Part shown: one piece after another, positions 1 to 10,018 of the stretch | Numbering within the stretch: position 1 is the first letter of the stretch | Layout: the number at the start of each line of letters is the position of its first letter | Source of the DNA: Desulforapulum autotrophicum | Lineage (GTDB): Bacteria; Desulfobacterota; Desulfobacteria; Desulfobacterales; Desulfolunaceae | NCBI GenBank assembly: GCA_020723285.1 | Contig: DYJE01000003.1 | Coordinates: 209,924-273,923, forward strand | Length of the DNA: 64,000 bases | Direction: 5' to 3' | Position numbers and translations under genes: made by a program | The notes under the pieces: model-generated | Seen by the model: the letters and a program-made list of their open reading frames with translations, nothing else | The model's database searches: none | Told to the model about the DNA's origin: nothing

Positions 1-237
1 AGGCTCTATGACCTACAAGACCGAATCGATGGGTTTCAATCGTTAACAGAGCAATGCATTCAATATTGTTTGGTCAATGACTGGTTATCAATAGACGAAC
101 ACAGTTTGACCATTCGCGCATGTAATGAATCTGAGCCAGGATTTACCAATCAAAAAAGTGCAGAGAAGTTAGGACGGTTATTTAGCGGTCACTCAGTGGT
201 CGAGATTTATGCGTTTTTAGGAGTGATTCCGCGATGA
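1..237 (+). CDS. ABC-3C system middle component (3' end only)
   Basis: An open frame runs from base 1 to a TGA at 235-237, giving the last 78 residues of a protein cut by the window edge. Its end (AEKLGRLFSGHSVVEIYAFL, then GVIPR) resembles the C-terminus of the 'middle component' of three-component ABC systems, a small helical protein encoded next to SMC/Rad50-like ATPases. The stop overlaps the start of the downstream DUF3732 ATPase (ATGA), so the two are translationally coupled, which supports the call. In ABC-3C loci the middle component is thought to link the ATPase to an effector; here the effector gene, if any, lies left of the window. Motif match is from memory, so family assignment is likely rather than proven. 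Confidence 0.7.
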   Translation, partial: RLYDLQDRIDGFQSLTEQCIQYCLVNDWLSIDEHSLTIRACNESEPGFTNQKSAEKLGRLFSGHSVVEIYAFLGVIPR

Positions 238-2255
238 AAACATTAATTCATGAAATTGGCGTTATTGATAAGCAGGGAACCAAGCACCCTGTTAATTTTA
301 AAAAGGGGCTAAATGTTGTCACTGGTAAGTCATCGACAGGCAAAAGCGCCTTAATTGAAATCTTTGATTATTGCTTTGGCAGTAGTGAGAACACTATTCC
401 AAAAGGGGTCATTACCAATAGGGCTACTATTTACTATGTCGCGCTTTCGGTGAATGAGCAACATATGGTGATTGCGCGTGATCCTGCTATAGCGAGTAAG
501 GCTTTTTTTCGTCGTGTTGAGTCATTCAATTCTGAAGATATTGATCGCGAATATTTTAACAGAAACTATTTTCGCCCGTTAGCTGATTTTAAAAAGCATC
601 TAAGAGACTTTTTCTTAGATATAGATGATGTGGATGAGTCATTGGCAGCTAAAGCCAATCGGCGCTTTAATGCCAAAGCGTCTACTCCTTCAATACGCAG
701 CTTTTCATCGTTTATTCTTCAACATCAAAACCTTGTTGCCAATAAACATGCGTTATTTTACCGTTTCGATGAAAAGAAAAAACGTGACCAAGCGATTGAT
801 CATACCAAAATATTTTTAGGGTTAGTTGATCAAAAATACTTTCATTTGTCACAAGAAAAAGAACGGTTAAGCGCCGATGTTAAACGCTTAGAGCGTCAGA
901 GAGAGACAAACAAGCGTACCTCTGAAAACTACAAGCAACGTGTTGGTCCTGTTTTAAGCCATCTTTATGCTTTGATGGGATTTAAAGACGAGCCACTGTC
1001 TTCGGAAATGGTGCTACGCCACCCACAGGACGCCAAAGACCAGCTCGACCTCATTATCGTACCTGAAAAAATTAATCATAACTCGGATGCTGTAACTCAA
1101 CGCTACAATCAACTTAAGCTGGAGCGCACTCAAAAGACTGCCGATCTTAGAAAGTTGCATCGACAAGCGGCATCAATTAACAAGCATATTCAAGAAGAAG
1201 AGCGTTTTGTAGCTAACGTAAGGCAATTTAGCTCTCCAAATTATGTTCAGATATCAGCTTTAGTCTGCCCTTTTTGCCATACTGAAAAAGACACATTGCG
1301 AGATAGTGCAGAAAAATTACAGCAAGCTATTGCGAAAGTATCGGGCAACCTCGCACAAGCGCGCCCAATGAAAGCAAAGTTTGAATCGTCCTTGGTTGAA
1401 GTTCAACGTAACATAGAAGTTTTTGATAAGGAGTTGACCGCGTTAAACCTGCAAATCATGGAAGTTGAGAAAGCAGAGAAACAGTTGGAAGAACAAAAGA
1501 GCCTATATGAGAGTATCTTGATGCAGAAGGCCAAGCTATTCGTACTTCTCGACACCCTTAACATGGCAGATGATGGCGAGCTTGAAAAGGAAATTAAAGC
1601 TATAGAGAAACAGCTTAGAGATATCAATAAAGGCCTTAAACAATACGACGTACAAAAAGGAATAGAAATCGCTTCTGCAAAAGTAAATGAATATATGGCT
1701 GAAATTGGCAGACATTTCGAATTTGAAGCCAGCTACAAACCTATCAACCTTCATTTTTCCTTTGAGACATTTGATCTCTATCACTTAACTCCCGAGAACG
1801 AAAAAATTTACTTAAGATCAATGGGTAGTGGTGCAAACTGGCTGTACAGTCACGCAACGCTTTTTTTGGCACTTCACAAATATTTTACTGAGTTGGGTGA
1901 TAGGTGCGCTATTCCTTCAATACTATTTTTTGATCAGCCAACCCAGGTGTATTTCCCTAGCTTCAATCGCGACAACTCTGAATCATTTGAAGAACAAAAA
2001 AAGCAAGAAGCGGAGCAGCGTAAGACACTATATGTTGCACAAGATATCGATGAAGACATTAAAGCTGTTGAAAACCTATTCAGCCAGCTCTCGATTTATT
2101 GCAATGAGCTTGAGTTGAACAACGGATTTAGCCCACAAATAATCGTAACTGACCATGCGGATAATTTGACTTTGTCGAATGGAGTATCGTTTGAATCTTT
2201 GGTGAACGGCAACAGGTGGCGAATGCGCGGTTTAATTCATCCTACAGATGAATAA
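234..2255 (+). CDS. DUF3732 Rad50/SMC-like ATPase of an ABC-3C conflict system
   Basis: A 673-residue SMC-like ATPase of the DUF3732 type. The N-terminus carries a Walker A loop (GKSSTGKSALIE, about residues 32-43). A long coiled coil (about 200-500) is interrupted by a zinc-hook-like CPFC at residues 345-348, as in Rad50. The C-terminal head has an ABC signature region (SMGSGANWLYSHATLFLALH) and a Walker B (LFFDQPTQVYFP) near residue 564. The start overlaps the preceding middle-component gene by 4 nt. Such ATPases are believed to act on DNA or nucleoprotein in anti-phage or anti-plasmid conflict. Base composition is AT-richer than the core genes at the right end of the window, which fits horizontal acquisition. 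Function beyond the family is inferred. Confidence 0.85.
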   Translation: MKTLIHEIGVIDKQGTKHPVNFKKGLNVVTGKSSTGKSALIEIFDYCFGSSENTIPKGVITNRATIYYVALSVNEQHMVIARDPAIASKAFFRRVESFNSEDIDREYFNRNYFRPLADFKKHLRDFFLDIDDVDESLAAKANRRFNAKASTPSIRSFSSFILQHQNLVANKHALFYRFDEKKKRDQAIDHTKIFLGLVDQKYFHLSQEKERLSADVKRLERQRETNKRTSENYKQRVGPVLSHLYALMGFKDEPLSSEMVLRHPQDAKDQLDLIIVPEKINHNSDAVTQRYNQLKLERTQKTADLRKLHRQAASINKHIQEEERFVANVRQFSSPNYVQISALVCPFCHTEKDTLRDSAEKLQQAIAKVSGNLAQARPMKAKFESSLVEVQRNIEVFDKELTALNLQIMEVEKAEKQLEEQKSLYESILMQKAKLFVLLDTLNMADDGELEKEIKAIEKQLRDINKGLKQYDVQKGIEIASAKVNEYMAEIGRHFEFEASYKPINLHFSFETFDLYHLTPENEKIYLRSMGSGANWLYSHATLFLALHKYFTELGDRCAIPSILFFDQPTQVYFPSFNRDNSESFEEQKKQEAEQRKTLYVAQDIDEDIKAVENLFSQLSIYCNELELNNGFSPQIIVTDHADNLTLSNGVSFESLVNGNRWRMRGLIHPTDE

Positions 2256-2547
2256 GTGCACGCTAACGAGAGTATGGGTTAATTCACAAGAGTGGAGTTA
2301 GATTAGAAAATGTCCGGCTTTGGCAGCATCCGAACTGTTAGAGGATACGAAGGCGGCGTGTAACGTTAATTATTTTAGTGAAAAAAGGGGGCGGCCAACT
2401 TTGATGGGCAAGGCAGTTTATCTCCTTTTAAATGTTATTTCAATGCCGTCACCTTTAAGGTGGAATGTTTATTAATATTTGATAACTAATATAGAAAATA
2501 TCATTCATAGTAATAGCAAATTATTTTATAAAGGATCTTTTATACCT

Positions 2548-3189
2548 ATGATAAAAAAATCTGTTGTTTTGCATAGCGGTGGCTTAGACTCAACTTTATG
2601 CATTCTTCTAGCAATGGAGGCAAAAAGGGAAGTAGTGAGCCTTGGAATAGACTATGGACAACGACATCGCATAGAGTTGGAATATGCACAGGCACAGTGT
2701 CGGATCTATGGGATTGAACGGCGTGTATTAAGGGTGGAATGGGATAAACCAATAAGGGAAATACCTACCGATAGATCACTTGAAACAATCAGATCAGGTA
2801 TTTCACCAGCCTTTCTTCCAGTTCGTAATGCCGTATTTCTTACCCTTGCATGTGCTGAAGCAACAGGTATTGATGCAAAGGAGGTCTGGATTGGTGTTAA
2901 TGCATTGGATTTCTCGGGTTATCCTGATTGCCGTCCTGAATTCATTAATGCATTCAATGCCATGATCAATGTAGGCGTTCCCGATGGACCGCAAGTTGTA
3001 TCTCCATTAATTGAAATGTCAAAACCAGCCATAGCTTCTGAAGCAAAACGCCTTGGTCTCTCCCAAGGTGATACATGGAGTTGCTATCAGCCACAATACA
3101 CAAATAAAGGAATCTTACCTTGTGGAAAATGTGATGCTTGTATTCTTCATCATCATGCCTGGCATCCTAAAGACCTTAAAAAGAGATAG
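2548..3189 (+). CDS. queC: QueC-like 7-cyano-7-deazaguanine synthase
   Basis: 213 residues, normal length for QueC (about 220-230). It has the PP-loop ATP pyrophosphatase motif SGGLDS at residues 10-15, DYGQRHRIELEYA shortly after, and a C-terminal four-cysteine zinc site (C179, C192, C195, C198 in PCGKCDAC). QueC converts 7-carboxy-7-deazaguanine to preQ0 with ATP and ammonia, for queuosine or 7-deazaguanine DNA modification. I chose ATG 2548, preceded by AAGGA; an upstream in-frame TTG at 2479 would add 23 AT-rich residues without homology. It is the first gene of a tight run with a DUF6884 protein, a SIR2-kinase fusion and a deoxyribosyltransferase, and no queD, queE, queF or tgt is nearby. 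QueC-like proteins recur in defence loci (QatC in Qat, Cap9 in type IV CBASS), so a defence role is more likely than housekeeping queuosine synthesis. Confidence 0.88.
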   Translation: MIKKSVVLHSGGLDSTLCILLAMEAKREVVSLGIDYGQRHRIELEYAQAQCRIYGIERRVLRVEWDKPIREIPTDRSLETIRSGISPAFLPVRNAVFLTLACAEATGIDAKEVWIGVNALDFSGYPDCRPEFINAFNAMINVGVPDGPQVVSPLIEMSKPAIASEAKRLGLSQGDTWSCYQPQYTNKGILPCGKCDACILHHHAWHPKDLKKR

Positions 3190-3199
3190 GGCAGAACAA

Positions 3200-4405
3200 A
3201 TGGCTAAAATAGGACTTATATCTTGTGTAAGCAAAAAATGTCATAGCGAAACCTTTGCCAAAGAATTATACACATCGGCACTATTTACCAAATCTCGACA
3301 GTATGTCGAGCGAAATTGTGACACTTGGTTTATTCTATCTGCAAAATATGGTTTGGTTGAACCAAATGAAATTATTGAACCCTATAATGAAACTCTAAAT
3401 TCGAAAACAAAATATGATAGAGAAGAATGGGCAAAAAAAGTATGGAAAACCCTATGCCTCAGACTTAAACCCAATGATCAAGTTACAATCTTAGCCGGTG
3501 ATAAATACCGTGAAAAATTAATTCCACTTTTGATAGAATATGGTTGCAAGATTCACATACCGATGAAAGGTCTTGGTATAGGCTCTCAACTTAAATGGCT
3601 TTCAAGGGAACTTTCACAACCCAACAGGCAGAATGATATCGAACGTCTTTATAGAATATTAAGAAGGTTGGAAATTGGATTGGGCGGGAAACGTTTAATG
3701 GCGGAATGCACAGGAAAACAAAAATGGCCAACCAGTGGTGTTTATTTTTTCTTTGAGCCTAATGAATTCAGATCTGGATCGAATGAACTACGAATAGTGA
3801 GGGTTGGTACTCATCGTGTAAGTAAGGGGTCCAAGTCGACTCTTTGGAATCGTCTCCGCACACATCGAGGTACAGATAATGGTGGTGGGAATCATCGAGG
3901 CTCAATCTTTCGACTTCATATTGGTGCCGCCTTATCCATTAAAGAACCTAAGATTGCAGTCGATTCATGGGGTAAAGGCCAGTCAGCTAATGCTGAAATA
4001 CGTAGATCAGAGATAAATTTAGAACGCAGAGTGTCTAATCACATTGGTAATATGAAGCTGCTTTGGTTATCTATCAATGACGAAGCAAGCCCAATCAGTG
4101 ATAGAGCCTATATTGAAAGAAATATAATTGGAATGCTTGTTGGCATGGGAGGGGCTGCAGAGCCAGCCTCATCTGAATGGCTTGGTTTATCAAGTCCTGA
4201 TGAACGAATTAGGCAAGCAGGACTTTGGAATCTTGAATTTCTTGATTATTCATATTCTCCAGATTATCTTGACGTGATAGAAGAATACGTCGAAATAACG
4301 TTAGGAAATAAAAAATCACCGGCATGTTCAATTGCTCCTCAAGGCTGGTATATCAAGAAAAGACAAGGGGTATCTCATAAACAATTATTACTTTTTGGTG
4401 ATTAA
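3200..4405 (+). CDS. DUF6884 protein with C-terminal GIY-YIG-like nuclease domain
   Basis: 401 residues. Residues 4-135 match the DUF6884 pattern: ISCVSKKC near the start, then ELYTSALFTKSRQYV, FILSAKYGLV (45-53) and PYNETL (61-66). This domain has a Rossmann-like look, distantly like YaaA, and no established activity. Residues 178-320 look like a divergent GIY-YIG nuclease: GVYFFFE (180-186), IVRVGTH (199-205), LWNRLRTHRG (215-224) with a candidate catalytic arginine, and a later glutamate in YIERNIIGML (304-313). The start at ATG 3200 lies 10 nt after queC; a longer frame back to 3053 would overlap queC and lacks homology. The next gene begins 4 nt after its stop, so this is one operon. The GIY-YIG call is from motif spacing and should be tested by structure prediction. 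Confidence 0.72.
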   Translation: MAKIGLISCVSKKCHSETFAKELYTSALFTKSRQYVERNCDTWFILSAKYGLVEPNEIIEPYNETLNSKTKYDREEWAKKVWKTLCLRLKPNDQVTILAGDKYREKLIPLLIEYGCKIHIPMKGLGIGSQLKWLSRELSQPNRQNDIERLYRILRRLEIGLGGKRLMAECTGKQKWPTSGVYFFFEPNEFRSGSNELRIVRVGTHRVSKGSKSTLWNRLRTHRGTDNGGGNHRGSIFRLHIGAALSIKEPKIAVDSWGKGQSANAEIRRSEINLERRVSNHIGNMKLLWLSINDEASPISDRAYIERNIIGMLVGMGGAAEPASSEWLGLSSPDERIRQAGLWNLEFLDYSYSPDYLDVIEEYVEITLGNKKSPACSIAPQGWYIKKRQGVSHKQLLLFGD

Positions 4406-4409
4406 TTTT

Positions 4410-6068
4410 ATGATTAAATTGAACTGTGATCACAAATCGGTTTTAGAATGCTACAATAGGCCAGTTGTACATATGAGAAAGCAGATAGATACTCGACGAT
4501 TTGGACTCATTTTTGGTGCAGGTTTGAGCAAAGGCTTTAATCTGCCCACTTGGAGTAAGCTTGTTGATGATTTAGCTTCTGACCCTGAAGTTGATGGAAA
4601 AGTGGTTTTAGATGTAGTCCCTCCGCGGGCTGGGCTTCCCTATCAAACTGAAATGCTATTTGAACATTACAGGCAGAAGCGCTATGTTGCTACTATACCT
4701 GAACAACATAATACCCGCGAAGTTGATTTTAAAATTGGTGCTGATTGGCGTGAATTAATTAGAAAGCATCTGTATTCAGAGCTCAAAGATGATATAGGTG
4801 ATGCACTTGACAAACACCCGTATTTGAAGCAATACATTCCATTAATCAAACGAACAAGTATGACTGTTACATACAACTTTGATGACTTTCTTGAACAAGC
4901 GCTTTTAAGAGAACGAAAAGGTTCTGAAGATCAATCTCTTGGATTTGAATCGGTGACAAATCCATGGGTACAGTTTAGGAGAACAAACGCTGTAATATAC
5001 CATCCAAATGGAGTAATCCCACAAAATCCCTTAGAAACACCAAGTGACCGTTTCGTTTTTTCCGAACAATCCTATGTAAAGCAATTAATGGGAATATATT
5101 CAGGTGATCAAGCTGGATTAGTCAACCATTTATCGAAGAATACATGCTTATTGATCGGTTTGTCACTGGAAGATGATACATTGCGTAATGTACTTACGCA
5201 GGCGGCTCATTCTTGTCCGGGGAGCTTTCACTATTATATACACTACCTTCCACCAGGTGGAGTTATTGATGATGCTACACGAAAAGCCATCACAAAAACT
5301 AATTTCAAGGTATACAATCTGATCACGCTTTTTCTGGATGATAGCGGAATCAAGGCAATTGGCGAACTTATAAATACATCCAGTTGTGAAAAAAATAAAT
5401 TCTGTGATTTCGCCGCAGAACACAATATCAAGGTAAGGTTTCGGTTTTATATCACAGGTGCATTAGGTGTCGGGAAGAGTACTTTAATTAATCATTTTAG
5501 AAATTTAGATGTTTTAGATGAGTGGATCGATCATAAACCAGCAATCTTAGCGAAAAGATGGGATTTGTTGACGCCTGAGGAGAAAATTCAAGCTGATGAC
5601 TGGATTATTAATCAATTCAAGAAAAAAAATGACAAGTTGCGAAATGAACGCGAAGGTATATTCATTTTGGACCGAGGTCCACTTGATCCAATGACCTTCA
5701 CACATATTAAAGAATGGAAAGAAAAGGCAAATAATATTCTTAAGGCTTTATGTCCAGGTAATGCCCAGTGGCATGTAGAGGGAGGCCGTGTTATTCTGCT
5801 TCAAGGTGACAGTAACGAATTATCCCTTCGCATGCTTATGACCAAAAGGGAAGATTATACAGCTGAACGACTTGCAAATATGGATGAAAGACTCAAGCAA
5901 GCATATGGCACAAAAAACGTCATGTTGTTTGATACTCGTGGTCTTACACCTTCTGATGTAGCTAATCGATTAGGTGATATTATTCATTTAGAAGACTATT
6001 CCCCAGTTTGCAACTTACACGAAAGATTGGAGACGCTTAAAAAAGAGGGATTTGATGTCGATAAATAA
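4410..6068 (+). CDS. SIR2-like NADase fused to a P-loop nucleoside-kinase-like domain
   Basis: 552 residues with two recognisable parts. Residues 30-330 form a SIR2_2-type domain: GAGLSKGFNLPTW (36-48), the VTYNFDDFLE segment (152-161), YHPNG with the likely catalytic histidine (H198), and LLIGLSLEDDTLRNVL (247-262). In prokaryotic immunity SIR2 domains act as NAD+-degrading effectors. Residues 343-530 form a P-loop domain: Walker A GALGVGKST (350-358), then FILDRGPLDP (418-427), like deoxynucleoside or thymidylate-type kinases, and a DTRG near 508. ATG 4410 is 4 nt after the DUF6884 stop; a TTG at 4332 would overlap that gene. The C-terminal domain could phosphorylate a nucleoside or act as a sensor switch. 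Substrate is unknown. Confidence 0.8.
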   Translation: MIKLNCDHKSVLECYNRPVVHMRKQIDTRRFGLIFGAGLSKGFNLPTWSKLVDDLASDPEVDGKVVLDVVPPRAGLPYQTEMLFEHYRQKRYVATIPEQHNTREVDFKIGADWRELIRKHLYSELKDDIGDALDKHPYLKQYIPLIKRTSMTVTYNFDDFLEQALLRERKGSEDQSLGFESVTNPWVQFRRTNAVIYHPNGVIPQNPLETPSDRFVFSEQSYVKQLMGIYSGDQAGLVNHLSKNTCLLIGLSLEDDTLRNVLTQAAHSCPGSFHYYIHYLPPGGVIDDATRKAITKTNFKVYNLITLFLDDSGIKAIGELINTSSCEKNKFCDFAAEHNIKVRFRFYITGALGVGKSTLINHFRNLDVLDEWIDHKPAILAKRWDLLTPEEKIQADDWIINQFKKKNDKLRNEREGIFILDRGPLDPMTFTHIKEWKEKANNILKALCPGNAQWHVEGGRVILLQGDSNELSLRMLMTKREDYTAERLANMDERLKQAYGTKNVMLFDTRGLTPSDVANRLGDIIHLEDYSPVCNLHERLETLKKEGFDVDK

Positions 6069-6537
6069 TAATCAAATGCAATACAGACCAATGGTATACC
6101 TTGCAGCGCCACTATTCAGCGATGCAGAGAGAACCTTTAATATTTTTGTGACTGAGTTAATTGAAAAGTACATTAAAGTATACCTTCCGCAAAGGGATGG
6201 TGGCCTTATGAGTGAAATGGTATCCAATGGAATGCCATATCATATTGCTAAGAGTATAATTTTTAAGCAGGATATGAAAGCAATTCACCAGTCTGAATGC
6301 TTGATCGCTATATTGGATGGCAGATCAATAGACGAAGGAGTTGCCTTTGAATTGGGTGTAGCGTTCTCTCAGTGCAAACTATGTGTTGGGCTTCAGACGG
6401 ATAGCCGCAGGCTGTCTGTGTGGGGTAACAATCCAATGATAGCTGGTGCCTTGGAAACAGTATTTGATTCGATTGATCCACTTCTGAATTGGGTTAGATA
6501 TACGTTAACAAAAAATTATTTTTGTTTACAAGATTAA
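6055..6537 (+). CDS. nucleoside 2-deoxyribosyltransferase family protein
   Basis: 160 residues, the usual size for the family. Key features are VYLAAPLFSDAER (14-26), a KQDMKAIHQSECLIAILDG segment (71-89) and SIDEGVAFELGVAF (91-104) with the probable catalytic nucleophile Glu99. These enzymes cleave or exchange the base of 2'-deoxynucleosides through a covalent deoxyribosyl-enzyme; related domains in conflict systems are proposed to process NAD- or nucleotide-derived signals. ATG 6055 overlaps the SIR2-kinase stop by 14 nt, so the genes are coupled. It is the last gene of the cassette; a repeat-rich region follows. In this context it may attach a modified base made with QueC to deoxyribose, or destroy a nucleotide pool. 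Both are inference. Confidence 0.82.
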   Translation: MSINNNQMQYRPMVYLAAPLFSDAERTFNIFVTELIEKYIKVYLPQRDGGLMSEMVSNGMPYHIAKSIIFKQDMKAIHQSECLIAILDGRSIDEGVAFELGVAFSQCKLCVGLQTDSRRLSVWGNNPMIAGALETVFDSIDPLLNWVRYTLTKNYFCLQD

Positions 6538-6549
6538 GTGCTGCGGGGC

Positions 6550-6670
6550 GGGGTCGGGCCACGGTAACGCACTGTAATTAAACAGTATCATTCATATTTA
6601 AGCCTGTTTTTAGGGCTTAAACTGACATTTTCAAGTATGAAAATAGCATTTTAAGGAATCGAACAATAAA
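6550..6670 (+). repeat. diverged left-half copy of the GGGGTCGGGCCA element
   Basis: Starts with GGGGTCGGGCCACGGTAAC and keeps the internal GTATGAAAAT and CATTTTAAGG landmarks of the full element at 6945-7191, but is diverged and lacks the right terminal inverted repeat. It lies just after the deoxyribosyltransferase gene and before the transposase fragment. Confidence 0.6.
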
Positions 6671-6711
6671 ACGGTATCGTTAAAGTGAAAATGGGTTTAC
6701 CGGATGGCACG

Positions 6712-6741
6712 TGGAATTCCGGGGACACCATACTTAATTAT
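6712..6741. repeat. REP-like repeat CCGGGGACACCATACTTAAT
   Basis: The string AATTCCGGGGACACCATACT followed by TAATTA recurs in both orientations at 14291-14394. Such repeats commonly flank REP-associated tyrosine transposases (RAYT), and one RAYT fragment begins 38 nt downstream here. Confidence 0.65.
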
Positions 6742-6778
6742 TGATTTGACAAGCAACATATGTGAATAGTGATTCACT

Positions 6779-6944
6779 ATGGCACGACTATCATGATCAG
6801 TGGCTCCGGGATTGCCACACCACGTCACCCAGCGTGGAAACAGGCGTCAGCAGACATTTTTCAATGAAAATGATTATCAGGCATATCTTGAACTGATGTC
6901 GGAATCATGTTTGAGGTATGGTGTTGAGAGCTTGTTGAGAGCTG
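6779..6944 (+). pseudogene. REP-associated tyrosine transposase (RAYT) remnant
   Basis: Translation from ATG 6779 gives MARLS, a TGA stop, then SVAPGLPHHVTQRGNRRQQT and FFNENDYQAYLELM, the classic N-terminus of a Y1 (RAYT/TnpA_REP) transposase, including the metal-binding HHV region. The stop at codon 6 replaces an arginine usual in the family (one substitution, CGA to TGA). Homology ends near 6930, where a MITE-like element begins at 6945, so the catalytic tyrosine part is missing. The gene is dead by nonsense mutation and truncation. It may once have mobilised the REP-like repeat immediately upstream. Confidence 0.85.
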
Positions 6945-7191
6945 CAAATGGGGTCGGGCCACAGTAACTGGCTGAAACAAAAAGATATCACCTGAAAAAA
7001 TGGGCTTATTTTGCCCTTAAAAGCATGTTTTTGGGTATGAAATTGTTCATTTAAGGGAAATAAGAAACAGAAAAACAATTCATAGAGGGCCAATTTGGGG
7101 GGCGAAAATGCCGGTTTAAACATCATTTAAGGCAAAATGTTTAGCCCATTTGTTATTATTTCATTTTGTTGCCATGGCCCGACCCCATTTG
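6945..7191. mobile_element. MITE-like element, copy 1 (247 bp)
   Basis: Bounded by perfect 17-bp terminal inverted repeats CAAATGGGGTCGGGCCA and TGGCCCGACCCCATTTG. The interior is itself a foldback: an ATGGGCTTATTTTGCCC arm near the left is mirrored by GGCAAAATGTTTAGCCCAT near the right. It has no coding capacity. Two further near-identical copies lie at 9125-9366 and 9773-10018. It sits directly against the truncated RAYT gene. Confidence 0.85.
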
Positions 7192-7464
7192 AAAAACATT
7201 TTGCTTCACCGGAGCGCATAAAGCCGTGCCCGGTGAGCAATGCGTTGAAATTGTAGAAAAAGCCGGTTTTCAGGTATTTTTTTTATTATGACCTCCAAAA
7301 TGGAGAAAAATGAAAAAATCCATGGTTGGAGGTGGATAACCCGGAAATTGACGTCAACAAAGCATTTCCGAGGTTTATACTCATTAAATTTTAAAAGTTT
7401 GTGAAAAAGCTATTATTTAGAAAATGTGGCAAAAAACCTGAAAATGGACTTTTTCTACAGACTC
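7192..7464. other. gene-free stretch between MITE copy 1 and cassette-like genes
   Basis: AT-rich with no coding frame of note. It ends in ACTCGTTAGGC, where GTTAGGC (7465-7471) matches the core (R') sequence at which integron cassettes join. A complete attC or attI partner is not evident upstream. Confidence 0.4.
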
Positions 7465-7483
7465 GTTAGGCATTGGAAGAAAT

Positions 7484-8203
7484 ATGGCTGAAGTTCCAAG
7501 TATATTGAACTCAACAAAACCAATTCTTTATGAAACCGGATATGAAGAATGGCCATATGGATATGCGGGTTCATGTTTTCCTGTCCGATGGAGAAATAAT
7601 CTATATATAGTTTCAGCGTTTCACTGCTATAAAAATCATCAAGTTGATCCTGAAAAAACACTTTATCCCATTCCAACAGACTCAAATAATTATTTTGGTT
7701 TTTGTTGCAAAACACGCGCAAAGGTGAATAAAGCAGGTGACTTAAAGCATTATGACCAAATATTGCTTCAGGTGTCAGCTGACATCCATAGTGATGAACA
7801 GATTAATTCTGTTAATGCATTTGACTTGAGTGATACTAACCATTATATATCATTATCAAATCGAAATATTAAAGATATATGGTTAAGGGGGTATCTTTTA
7901 AAGAATCCTATTCATTCAATCGAATATGAAAAACACATAATAAGACAACAGGCCTACCTCACAAATGGTTATGTATCTTCAAGAAAAAGCATGTTTGATT
8001 TTTGCTTTATGTTAAAAGTCAAAACACCAGTACCTGAAGGTTTAACACCTAATGGTATGAGTGGAAGCCCTGTCTATGCTATAGACTATAATAATAGTAT
8101 AAGATTTGCAGGAACAATAATTGAGCACAACTCATATACTGATGAGTTTTTGGTTATCGATTCAGTTATTTTACAGGAATTACTAAGAAGAATAAATGCC
8201 TAA
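7484..8203 (+). CDS. trypsin-like serine protease domain protein (cassette-borne)
   Basis: 239 residues. The order of motifs fits a chymotrypsin-fold protease: VSAFHC with His47, HYDQILL with Asp91, and GMSGSPVY with Ser193. There is no signal peptide, so it should act in the cytoplasm. The ATG at 7484 comes about 13 nt after a GTTAGGC core and the TAA stop lies inside the left arm of an attC-like site (CCTAAC), the arrangement of a promoterless integron gene cassette. The coding sequence is AT-rich, unlike the core genes. Cytoplasmic trypsin-like proteases occur in several defence systems, but no partner is assigned here. I recognise the fold, not a named family. Confidence 0.65.
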   Translation: MAEVPSILNSTKPILYETGYEEWPYGYAGSCFPVRWRNNLYIVSAFHCYKNHQVDPEKTLYPIPTDSNNYFGFCCKTRAKVNKAGDLKHYDQILLQVSADIHSDEQINSVNAFDLSDTNHYISLSNRNIKDIWLRGYLLKNPIHSIEYEKHIIRQQAYLTNGYVSSRKSMFDFCFMLKVKTPVPEGLTPNGMSGSPVYAIDYNNSIRFAGTIIEHNSYTDEFLVIDSVILQELLRRINA

Positions 8204-8278: not shown

Positions 8279-9064
8279 TTGAGTCTCAAAAAACGATTGC
8301 TTAAAGTATCAGATGAACTTGCCAAAGTTCCAAGTTTAGGTTGGGGGTTGGGATACTTTTTGGTGATTTTTATTTTTGCAGGAATTTACACATTGAATAG
8401 TCGTGGGTTTTATCATTCAACCTCTCAATTTGAGATGAGTATGGATGATGATGCACAAAAAATCCTTTCATCACTTGAGTCAATATTTAAGAGTAAATCC
8501 AATTTTTCGTCCGCGGAATATGATGGTTGGAGGTTAGTAGAAGAGAAGTATTCTGTTCATTCGTTAAAAATAGTTGATAAAAACGTTAGGTTTTCTATTT
8601 ACACTGTATTCGAGAAAGAACATGATTTGGTTGGTTTGAATATTGAACTTTACTTTGCTATCAATCCATATCTTACAACATGTGAAAGTAATTCCGATTG
8701 TTATTCAACTCGTATTGTTCAAACTGTAAGACCAATTATTAATAAAGAGAACAATTCTTTTAATCTTATCACTCAAGCTATAGCCTATTACAGTGACATA
8801 AACCTAATTCAGGTGCCAATAGAGTTGGATAAAAAAATTAGTGGATTTGCTGCAGCGACTATAGGTTTTCCTTCTGAAGCAAGCGGTAGCTTTAGCCGAA
8901 TGTTATATTTAAGTGTTGTAACAATAACTACTCTTGGCTACGGTGATATAGTTCCAATCACGGATTTCAATCGGTTTTTAATCGGTTTTGAGTCAATAAT
9001 TGGTCTTGTAATAATTGGTTTGTTTTTAAATTCCCTTTCTAAAGAGAGGAGAGAATTGCCCTAA
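8279..9064 (+). CDS. two-TM potassium channel-like protein (cassette-borne)
   Basis: 261 residues from a TTG start preceded by AAAGGAA; no ATG gives the first membrane helix. Helix 1 is about residues 20-39. A soluble loop of roughly 160 residues follows. The pore region near the C-terminus contains the K+ selectivity filter TTLGYGD (217-223) and a second helix (about 234-252). This is the Ion_trans_2 (2TM) layout, but with an unusually large extra domain between the helices. The stop codon lies in GCCCTAAC, matching the left end of an attC site, so it looks like a second gene cassette; the right half of that site is missing. The likely role is K+ conductance in the inner membrane; ligand and purpose are unknown. 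Confidence 0.75.
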   Translation: MSLKKRLLKVSDELAKVPSLGWGLGYFLVIFIFAGIYTLNSRGFYHSTSQFEMSMDDDAQKILSSLESIFKSKSNFSSAEYDGWRLVEEKYSVHSLKIVDKNVRFSIYTVFEKEHDLVGLNIELYFAINPYLTTCESNSDCYSTRIVQTVRPIINKENNSFNLITQAIAYYSDINLIQVPIELDKKISGFAAATIGFPSEASGSFSRMLYLSVVTITTLGYGDIVPITDFNRFLIGFESIIGLVIIGLFLNSLSKERRELP

Positions 9065-9124: not shown

Positions 9125-9366
9125 AAATGGGGTCGGGCCACAGTAACTGGCTGAAACAAAAAGATATCACCTGAAAAAATGGGCTTATTTTGCCCTTAAA
9201 AGCATGTTTTTGGTATGAAATTGTCCATTTAACGGAAATAAGAAACAGAAAAAAAATTCATAGAGGGCCAATTTGGGGGTCGAAAATGCCTGTTTAAACA
9301 TCATTTAGGGCAAAATGTTTAGCCCATTTGTCATTATTTCAGTTTGTTGCCATGGCCCGACCCCAT
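9125..9366. mobile_element. MITE-like element, copy 2
   Basis: Terminal inverted repeats ATGGGGTCGGGCCA and TGGCCCGACCCCAT. Its interior is nearly identical to the copies at 6945-7191 and 9773-10018. It lies immediately downstream of the truncated attC-like arm. Confidence 0.85.
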
Positions 9367-9772
9367 GGAAAGCTCTTGATTAGGGAATTTCGGAATTGAG
9401 GTCGGTCGTCAATAGTGGATACCAACCAACTCATTTTTTATAACTTTCAGCATATATTTTATTAAAAAAAAGCAGCGGGAGAAAGGTAGCCAAGCCTTTA
9501 CTGGCACCTTTTACGATTATGGGGGGCACGGTGTTGGGCCACGCCAACAAGATGTAATCAGGATTAATATCATCGAAATAGTGCCTTAAAATGACCTTAA
9601 GCCGTCAATTTCACGCCCGAAAATGCCGGTTTAAGAATTCATTCATATTCCTGCCGGTTATGGCATATTCACAAGCTTGTTGAACCAAACCACCTGATTC
9701 ACAGATTGTTATTTATCCGATTTCATATATTCGCGAATCAATATTTCTGCAACCTGAGACTTATTCCTGAAA
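9367..9772. repeat. gene-free stretch with a short relative of the element (9521-9636)
   Basis: No coding frame seen. From about 9521 the sequence GTTGGGCCACGCC through AAAATGCCGGTTTAAG belongs to a shorter (about 110 bp) subfamily that shares its ends and the TGCCTTAAAATGACCTTAA core with copies at 11456-11565 and 11796-11902. Confidence 0.55.
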
Positions 9773-10018
9773 CAAATGGGGTCGGGCCACAGTAACTGGT
9801 TGAAACAAAGAGATATCACCTGAAAAAATGGGCTTATTTTGCCCTTAAAAGCATGTTTTTGGGTATGAAATTGTCCATTTAAGGGAAATAAGAAACAGAA
9901 AAAAATTCTTAGAGGGCCAATTTGGGGGTCGAAAATGCCGGTTTAAACATCATTTAGGGCAAAATATTTAGCCCATTTGTCATTATTTCAGTTAGTTGCC
10001 ATGGCCCGACCCCATTTG
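9773..10018. mobile_element. MITE-like element, copy 3
   Basis: Perfect 17-bp terminal inverted repeats CAAATGGGGTCGGGCCA and TGGCCCGACCCCATTTG. The interior matches copies 1 and 2 with only a few differences, implying recent spread. Confidence 0.85.

Follow-up and report, generated by a model that had tools for sequence, protein, structure and literature searches.

A DUF6884–GIY-YIG-like fusion in a four-gene operon of Desulforapulum autotrophicum: a candidate defence system with a possible link to 7-deazaguanine

Results

The 64,000-nt stretch of Desulforapulum autotrophicum DNA analyzed here (hereafter, the window) contains a four-gene operon that encodes, in this order, a QueC-family enzyme, a protein fusing DUF6884 to a second domain, a SIR2–P-loop kinase and a nucleoside 2-deoxyribosyltransferase (NDT). 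We propose, with a probability of about 0.42, that this operon is a mobile, DpdA-less defence system that depends on 7-deazaguanine, in which the fusion protein would act as a base-handling nuclease and the SIR2 domain as a NADase back-up. Gene order, conservation, intact active-site motifs, the alternation of QueC with YhhQ and the linkage of NDT to QueC elsewhere are observed directly. Known families are combined here in a conserved and apparently undescribed arrangement: the open-access literature, newer defence catalogues excepted, yielded no paper on a QueC/SIR2/deoxyribosyltransferase operon, and none of the open-access papers retrieved on PDC-M57 describes it. The features of the locus are the following:

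234..2255, + strand: LmuB/DUF3732 ATPase (LmuB, 3.0e-116), last gene of a Lamassu-type locus, outside the operon
2548..3189, + strand: QueC-family 7-cyano-7-deazaguanine synthase (PF06508, E=4.4e-54)
3200-4405, + strand: DUF6884–PDC-M57B fusion gene, intact ORF from ATG to TAA, 401 aa
3200..3607, + strand: DUF6884 domain (PDC-M57A; PF21818, CxxxK and LSAxxG motifs)
3620..4405, + strand: PDC-M57B domain (PDC-M57B profile; divergent GIY-YIG nuclease-like) and short disordered tail
4410..6068, + strand: SIR2-like NADase domain (SIR2_2, 1.7e-13) and P-loop, nucleoside/nucleotide-kinase-like domain (AAA_28, 3e-7)
6055..6537, + strand: NDT (PF05014, 5.3e-18), its start overlapping the end of the SIR2-kinase gene

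Conservation of the operon

The whole operon was found, in the same order, in seven further loci spanning several phyla and a viral contig: L021 (Geobacter), L026 (Bacteroidetes), L044, L058, L060 (Burkholderia), L065 (Pseudomonas) and L102 (IMG/VR contig); the hosts also include Sideroxydans and Nitrosomonadales. No operon DNA was found in the E. coli genomes searched. Besides the window, eight related loci have QueC immediately 5' of the fusion gene, and two more have a YhhQ-type gene in this position. These two loci (L083 and L091, both from Clostridia) have no QueC and carry a gene of the Vut_1/PF02592 family (E about 1e-50), to which the preQ0 transporter YhhQ belongs, directly upstream of the fusion, between it and the NDT gene, which lies upstream of the fusion in three Clostridia loci overall. 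In E. coli, YhhQ has been implicated in the transport of preQ0 (PMC5372724). Since synthesis of the base (QueC) or its import (YhhQ) is encoded at the same position, we argue that the operon requires the free base. One operon (L062) presents neither gene.

The SIR2-kinase and NDT genes, which always occur together in the loci with a fused protein, were also found without QueC or the fusion in three loci (L160, L161 and L162) and may constitute an independent module. In L161, a Rhizobium plasmid, they stand behind a gene whose 1212-aa product includes an ATPase segment resembling QatA (2369-8117 for the whole set). In two phyla, the immediate neighbour of the operon encodes a small protein with probable membrane segments (L021, 6142-6753; L026, 10932-11549).

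The DUF6884 half of the fusion protein

The fusion protein consists of DUF6884 (residues 4-136) followed by the second domain (about 141-370). PF21818 matches the former with E=6.4e-48 and 162.8 bits, relative to a gathering cut-off of 30, in agreement with a previous reading made from the sequence only, which had placed DUF6884 at residues 4-135 of the ORF 3200-4405. Both PADLOC profiles of PDC-M57 match the protein (PDC-M57A, residues 1-138, 2.7e-44; PDC-M57B, residues 143-368, 6.8e-88), and the pair of domains is already catalogued in PADLOC as the two-gene defence candidate PDC-M57. The sequence-only reading mentioned neither this candidate nor the operon around the gene. The DpdC profiles of PADLOC match the N-terminal part weakly (2.7e-4), and a sequence profile relates the same half to the YaaA structure 5caj (E=3e-4).

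The CxxxK (C9, K13) and LSAxxG (LSAKYG, from residue 46) motifs are both present. These are the motifs by which the Pfam authors describe DUF6884, together with a YaaA-like fold and a DNA-binding cleft; their AlphaFold3 model places a flipped base in the presumed active site, and proteins that bind abasic and RNA-base lesions were found to include YfjM, which has DUF6884 (PMC11701544). DpdC, to which the DUF6884 domain is assigned, is needed for the presence in DNA of dADG, the amide form of 7-deazaguanine (PMC11888242). The domain, previously presented as possibly nucleotide-handling, is better described as a YaaA/DpdC-type domain that handles DNA bases (PMC11701544, PMC11888242).

The second domain

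The second domain had been read as a divergent GIY-YIG-like nuclease domain from the motifs GVYFFFE, IVRVGTH and LWNRLRTHRG, with an arginine near 218 and a later glutamate. The motifs are found as described (G180-V-Y182-FFFE, I199-VRVGTH-205 and L215-WNRLRTHRG-224, with Arg218), except that the glutamate is Glu306 and not Glu307. In an alignment of 80 homologues, G180, Y182, R201, G203, R218 and H222 are conserved in all sequences and E306 in 79, indicating that the motifs of the fusion protein did not arise by chance. The domain also contains a conserved insertion, GGGNHRGSIFRxxxG. The tyrosine of the YIG motif is replaced by R201 in 80/80 homologues and we thus classify the domain as divergent GIY-YIG-like rather than as a canonical member.

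The sequence-only reading had proposed structure prediction and a Foldseek search as checks. The model of the second domain, built from 80 sequences, presents a mean pLDDT of 94; in it, two strands are followed by a helix, further helices, a third strand and another helix, and the full-length model repeats this topology (b1 180-190, b2 197-204, helix 215-223, b3 286-291, helix 301-314). Strand 1 is predicted to carry GVY and strand 2 to carry RVG, while the first helix holds R218-x3-H222 and the helix that follows strand 3 holds E306. This corresponds to the GIY-YIG layout of two strands, a helix with the counterpart of the catalytic arginine (R218) and a later glutamate (E306). Foldseek returned no GIY-YIG fold for the second domain in PDB or BFVD, nor for the whole protein in PDB. 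This silence is weak evidence, since the top 50 Foldseek matches of the DUF6884 half also lacked YaaA (5caj), although the sequence profile finds it.

The hhalign alignment with the Eco29kI family is in register (GVY with GIY, VRVG with YVG, LWNRLRTH with LYKRLQEH). When ranked against 101 decoy families made from neighbouring genes, the Eco29kI profile came first after the self-match (P 0.008), followed in ranks 2 and 3 by the UvrC/URI GIY-YIG profiles, but the absolute hhalign scores of these profiles are weak (P about 0.01). Pfam and NCBIfam scans of the 80 homologues gave weak and scattered matches to GIY-YIG families. Beyond DUF6884, Pfam matched nothing on the fusion protein, GIY-YIG model included; a sequence search of the second domain against PDB found no match, and no GIY_YIG_2 (PF20815) relative that could serve as a bridge scored above cut-off in the sampled genomes.

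The lack of a Foldseek match and of a direct Pfam match, the arginine at the YIG tyrosine and the low hhalign probabilities would fit a C-terminal domain of unrelated fold with chance GxY and RxG motifs, perhaps as a DNA-binding partner of DUF6884. We regard this as improbable: the core motifs all occur in GIY-YIG order and spacing, R218-x3-H222 and E306 are near-invariant, the Eco29kI profile aligns in register as the best after the self-match, and GIY-YIG families do match among the homologues, if weakly. The GIY-YIG identity initially claimed is supported by topology, conserved residues and profile ranking, but not by Pfam or Foldseek, and we regard a divergent GIY-YIG-like domain, with a predicted nuclease activity, as the very probable identity of the second domain.

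Distribution of the DUF6884/PDC-M57B partnership

An initial genome scan with a single sequence as query gave no matches. When each species was represented by one genome, a scan guided by a profile identified 373 relatives of the second domain, of which 80 were kept, in addition to 15 in viral contigs. We then considered 103 second-domain loci, which were chosen by similarity to the window, such that their fractions are not population estimates. Fifteen of them encode a fusion with DUF6884, and in another 55 a separate DUF6884 ORF lies no more than 400 bp away on the same strand. In the others, DUF6884 is adjacent on the opposite strand (7), elsewhere in the locus (6) or not detected (20). The recurrence of the fusion and of closely spaced same-strand pairs indicates that no frameshift artefact underlies the fusion. 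The earlier observation of two domains joined in one polypeptide is confirmed.

The partnership was found across Bacteria and haloarchaea. The deep branching of the operon members was not settled by a FastTree phylogeny of the B domain. In a Natrialbaceae plasmid (L014, 4998-9862), a DUF6884 gene overlaps a GIY-YIG gene recognized by Pfam, and DUF1837 and a DEAD/DEAH helicase (a Hachiman-like pair) come after these genes. Four DUF6884 and PDC-M57B pairs (L047, L101, L103 and L107) are close to recurring prophage-type structural genes in shared gene clusters, suggesting that they are phage-borne cargo.

Most PDC-M57 pairs, adjacent or fused, have no QueC nearby, and two loci (L022 and L023) encode the fusion without SIR2 or NDT. 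This distribution, the lesion binding of YfjM (PMC11701544) and the SIR2-kinase and NDT genes standing alone in L160 and L162 would fit a fusion protein that acts by itself as a modification-dependent (type IV-like) or lesion-directed nuclease, with the other three genes as a separate module: DUF6884 would flip a phage DNA base that is modified or damaged, and the GIY-YIG-like domain would nick at this site. We consider this explanation possible but unlikely, as it does not account for the eight related loci with QueC, and the two with YhhQ, directly before the fusion.

The partner enzymes

The motifs SGGLDS, YxQxHxxE, LPxRN, YPDC and CY...CxxCxxC are invariant in nine operon QueCs. The whole canonical set is present in the operon QueC, with a V to L change in VPxRN and a longer cysteine spacing, and the operon QueCs match the catalytic signature given for preQ0-forming QueC (PMC13329287). 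A second QueC, with a stronger match than that of the operon, is encoded elsewhere in the genome.

QueC-family enzymes of defence systems can modify proteins: Cap9 of type IV CBASS deazaguanylates a partner protein, and the same has been proposed for QatC of qatABCD (PMC13279940, PMC13329287, PMC11996544). By analogy, the operon QueC might deazaguanylate a partner protein and thereby switch on the SIR2 or nuclease effector, and its canonical motifs would be no obstacle, as Cap9 likewise retains them. The Met-Gly N-terminus of the known targets is, however, absent from the operon proteins of the window (the fusion starts with MAKI, the SIR2 protein with MIKL and NDT with MSIN), which weakens this explanation. 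Moreover, a base transporter replaces QueC in two Clostridia and the QueC motifs fit a preQ0-forming enzyme, and we therefore hold it to be very unlikely. The operon was likewise not assigned to type IV CBASS or qatABCD, given that no operon protein offers an N-terminal glycine substrate beside QueC.

In the SIR2-kinase, N156/D158/H198, the P-loop and the DR motif are invariant in 10 homologues. The catalytic asparagine and histidine of SIR2 (N156, H198) are thus intact in these sequences, and the protein can probably destroy NAD+. PADLOC indicates a weak similarity to ThsA, and Pfam recognized no SLOG, SAVED or similar ligand-sensing domain. Matches of the P-loop domain to PDB sequences were limited to the P-loop level and did not define the type of kinase. 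A search for the SIR2-kinase in phages found none.

The closest solved structure to NDT is DpNDT (7o62; 3.2e-52, 44% identity over the part compared). The residues expected of a deoxyribosyltransferase, D72, D92 and E98, are conserved or invariant among relatives; we take E98 to be the nucleophilic glutamate and D72 and D92 its partner aspartates. NDT relatives on Amycolatopsis and Streptosporangium plasmids (L178 and L179) lie in QueD-QueE-hypothetical-QueC-NDT-epimerase-HAD clusters, possibly a pathway for a 7-deazapurine nucleoside natural product. In addition, about 89% of the neighbours of QueC-family cluster 4 are PfkB-NDT proteins (PMC13329287). These independent linkages suggest that NDT puts 7-deazaguanine onto deoxyribose.

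Alternatively, the SIR2 NADase could be activated by a 7-deazaguanine (deoxy)nucleotide produced by NDT and the kinase domain, with the fusion protein as sensor or processor. To our knowledge, no second messenger is known for such enzymes, and the SIR2 protein carries no recognized ligand-sensing domain. Small nucleotides switch on SIR2 effectors such as ThsA (PMC11204291), and the weak ThsA similarity and the inseparability of NDT and SIR2-kinase in fused loci would agree with such signalling; we give it only a slim chance.

Genomic context

A Lamassu-type LmuA-LmuC-LmuB set lies immediately 5' of the operon, with LmuA (2.8e-39) and LmuC (1.4e-15) closely preceding LmuB on the contig. On the downstream side, type I restriction-like genes were recognized by inspection. 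The G+C content is 37-40% in the first 10 kb of the window, operon included, and mostly 45-61% later. A full-length SIR2-kinase match was found in only one of the 395 sampled genomes of the phylum, that of the window, which suggests that the operon was probably acquired horizontally. Based on the Lamassu neighbour, the viral contig and the patchy distribution, the operon looks like a candidate anti-phage defence system.

Downstream of the operon, a MITE-like element of roughly 240 bp is scattered in three copies (6946-7190, 9125-9367 and 9774-10018) with imperfect inverted ends (TGGGGTCGGGCCAC...GGCCCGACCCCA); its first 23 bases have four matches in the window and none expected by chance. The same island encodes an Ion_trans_2 (potassium-channel-like) protein (8279-9064).

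Proposed mechanism

In the 7-deazaguanine-dependent system that we propose, QueC, or import through the YhhQ transporter in two Clostridia, would supply preQ0, which NDT, perhaps with the P-loop kinase domain, would move onto 2'-deoxyribose. The DUF6884 domain (YaaA/DpdC type, CxxxK) would engage 7-deazaguanine or the unmodified base in DNA, and this contact would license or block the fused GIY-YIG-like domain, a predicted nicker of foreign DNA. Depletion of NAD+ by the SIR2 domain would serve as a cell-killing back-up. The activities and the sequence of steps are all inferred, as are the substrate and the direction in which self and non-self would be discriminated.

No DpdA-like transglycosylase was found in the operon, and the whole genome contains a single TGT-family match. 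This is the main gap of the model, as it concerns the route of the base into DNA. The SIR2-kinase and NDT genes without QueC elsewhere, the many PDC-M57 pairs without QueC, L062 and the Foldseek result also count against it. A more specific version, in which immunity is free of a DNA transglycosylase, NDT and the kinase build a 2'-deoxy-7-deazaguanine nucleotide from preQ0, the fusion protein relies on this base in distinguishing self from foreign DNA and SIR2 kills the cell, appears unlikely. The probabilities that we attach to the alternative explanations overlap, and the possibility that the second domain is not GIY-YIG-like is independent of the others.

If confirmed, the model would connect 7-deazaguanine chemistry with the PDC-M57 candidate, offer for DUF6884 a function outside Dpd islands that can be tested and constitute a third route of QueC recruitment into immunity. 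It would also suggest a nucleotide-level, DpdA-free use of preQ0. The alternation of QueC and YhhQ makes the metabolite requirement directly testable.

Comparison with known systems

Both PDC-M57 profiles match the fusion protein, but PDC-M57 is modelled as two proteins whereas the window encodes one polypeptide within a QueC/SIR2-kinase/NDT operon. The R.Eco29kI family (PF09517) has its GxY, xxG, RLxxH and E motifs ordered as in the fusion protein and aligns in register; the fusion protein differs from it by Arg201 in place of the YIG tyrosine, the conserved NHRGSIFR insertion and its joining to DUF6884, and the Pfam model of the family gives no match. Dpd islands likewise combine a DUF6884 protein (DpdC), preQ0 supply genes including QueC or YhhQ, and a nuclease. 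In contrast, the operon has neither DpdA nor DpdB, its nuclease-like domain is fused to DUF6884, and SIR2-kinase and NDT stand instead of dpdD-K; canonical Dpd membership was rejected, as the genome has a single TGT match. The qatABCD and type IV CBASS systems (QatC, Cap9) also harbor a QueC-family enzyme within a defence locus, but the QueC of the window presents canonical preQ0-type motifs and the operon encodes no CD-NTase, QatB or QatD. The SIR2 domain, with its conserved N, D and H, resembles Thoeris ThsA and other SIR2 NADase effectors, although its protein carries a C-terminal P-loop kinase-like domain rather than the SLOG of ThsA and is paired with NDT. Finally, NDT resembles DpNDT in sequence and in its conserved D72/D92/E98, but it sits in a defence-type operon beside a SIR2-kinase.
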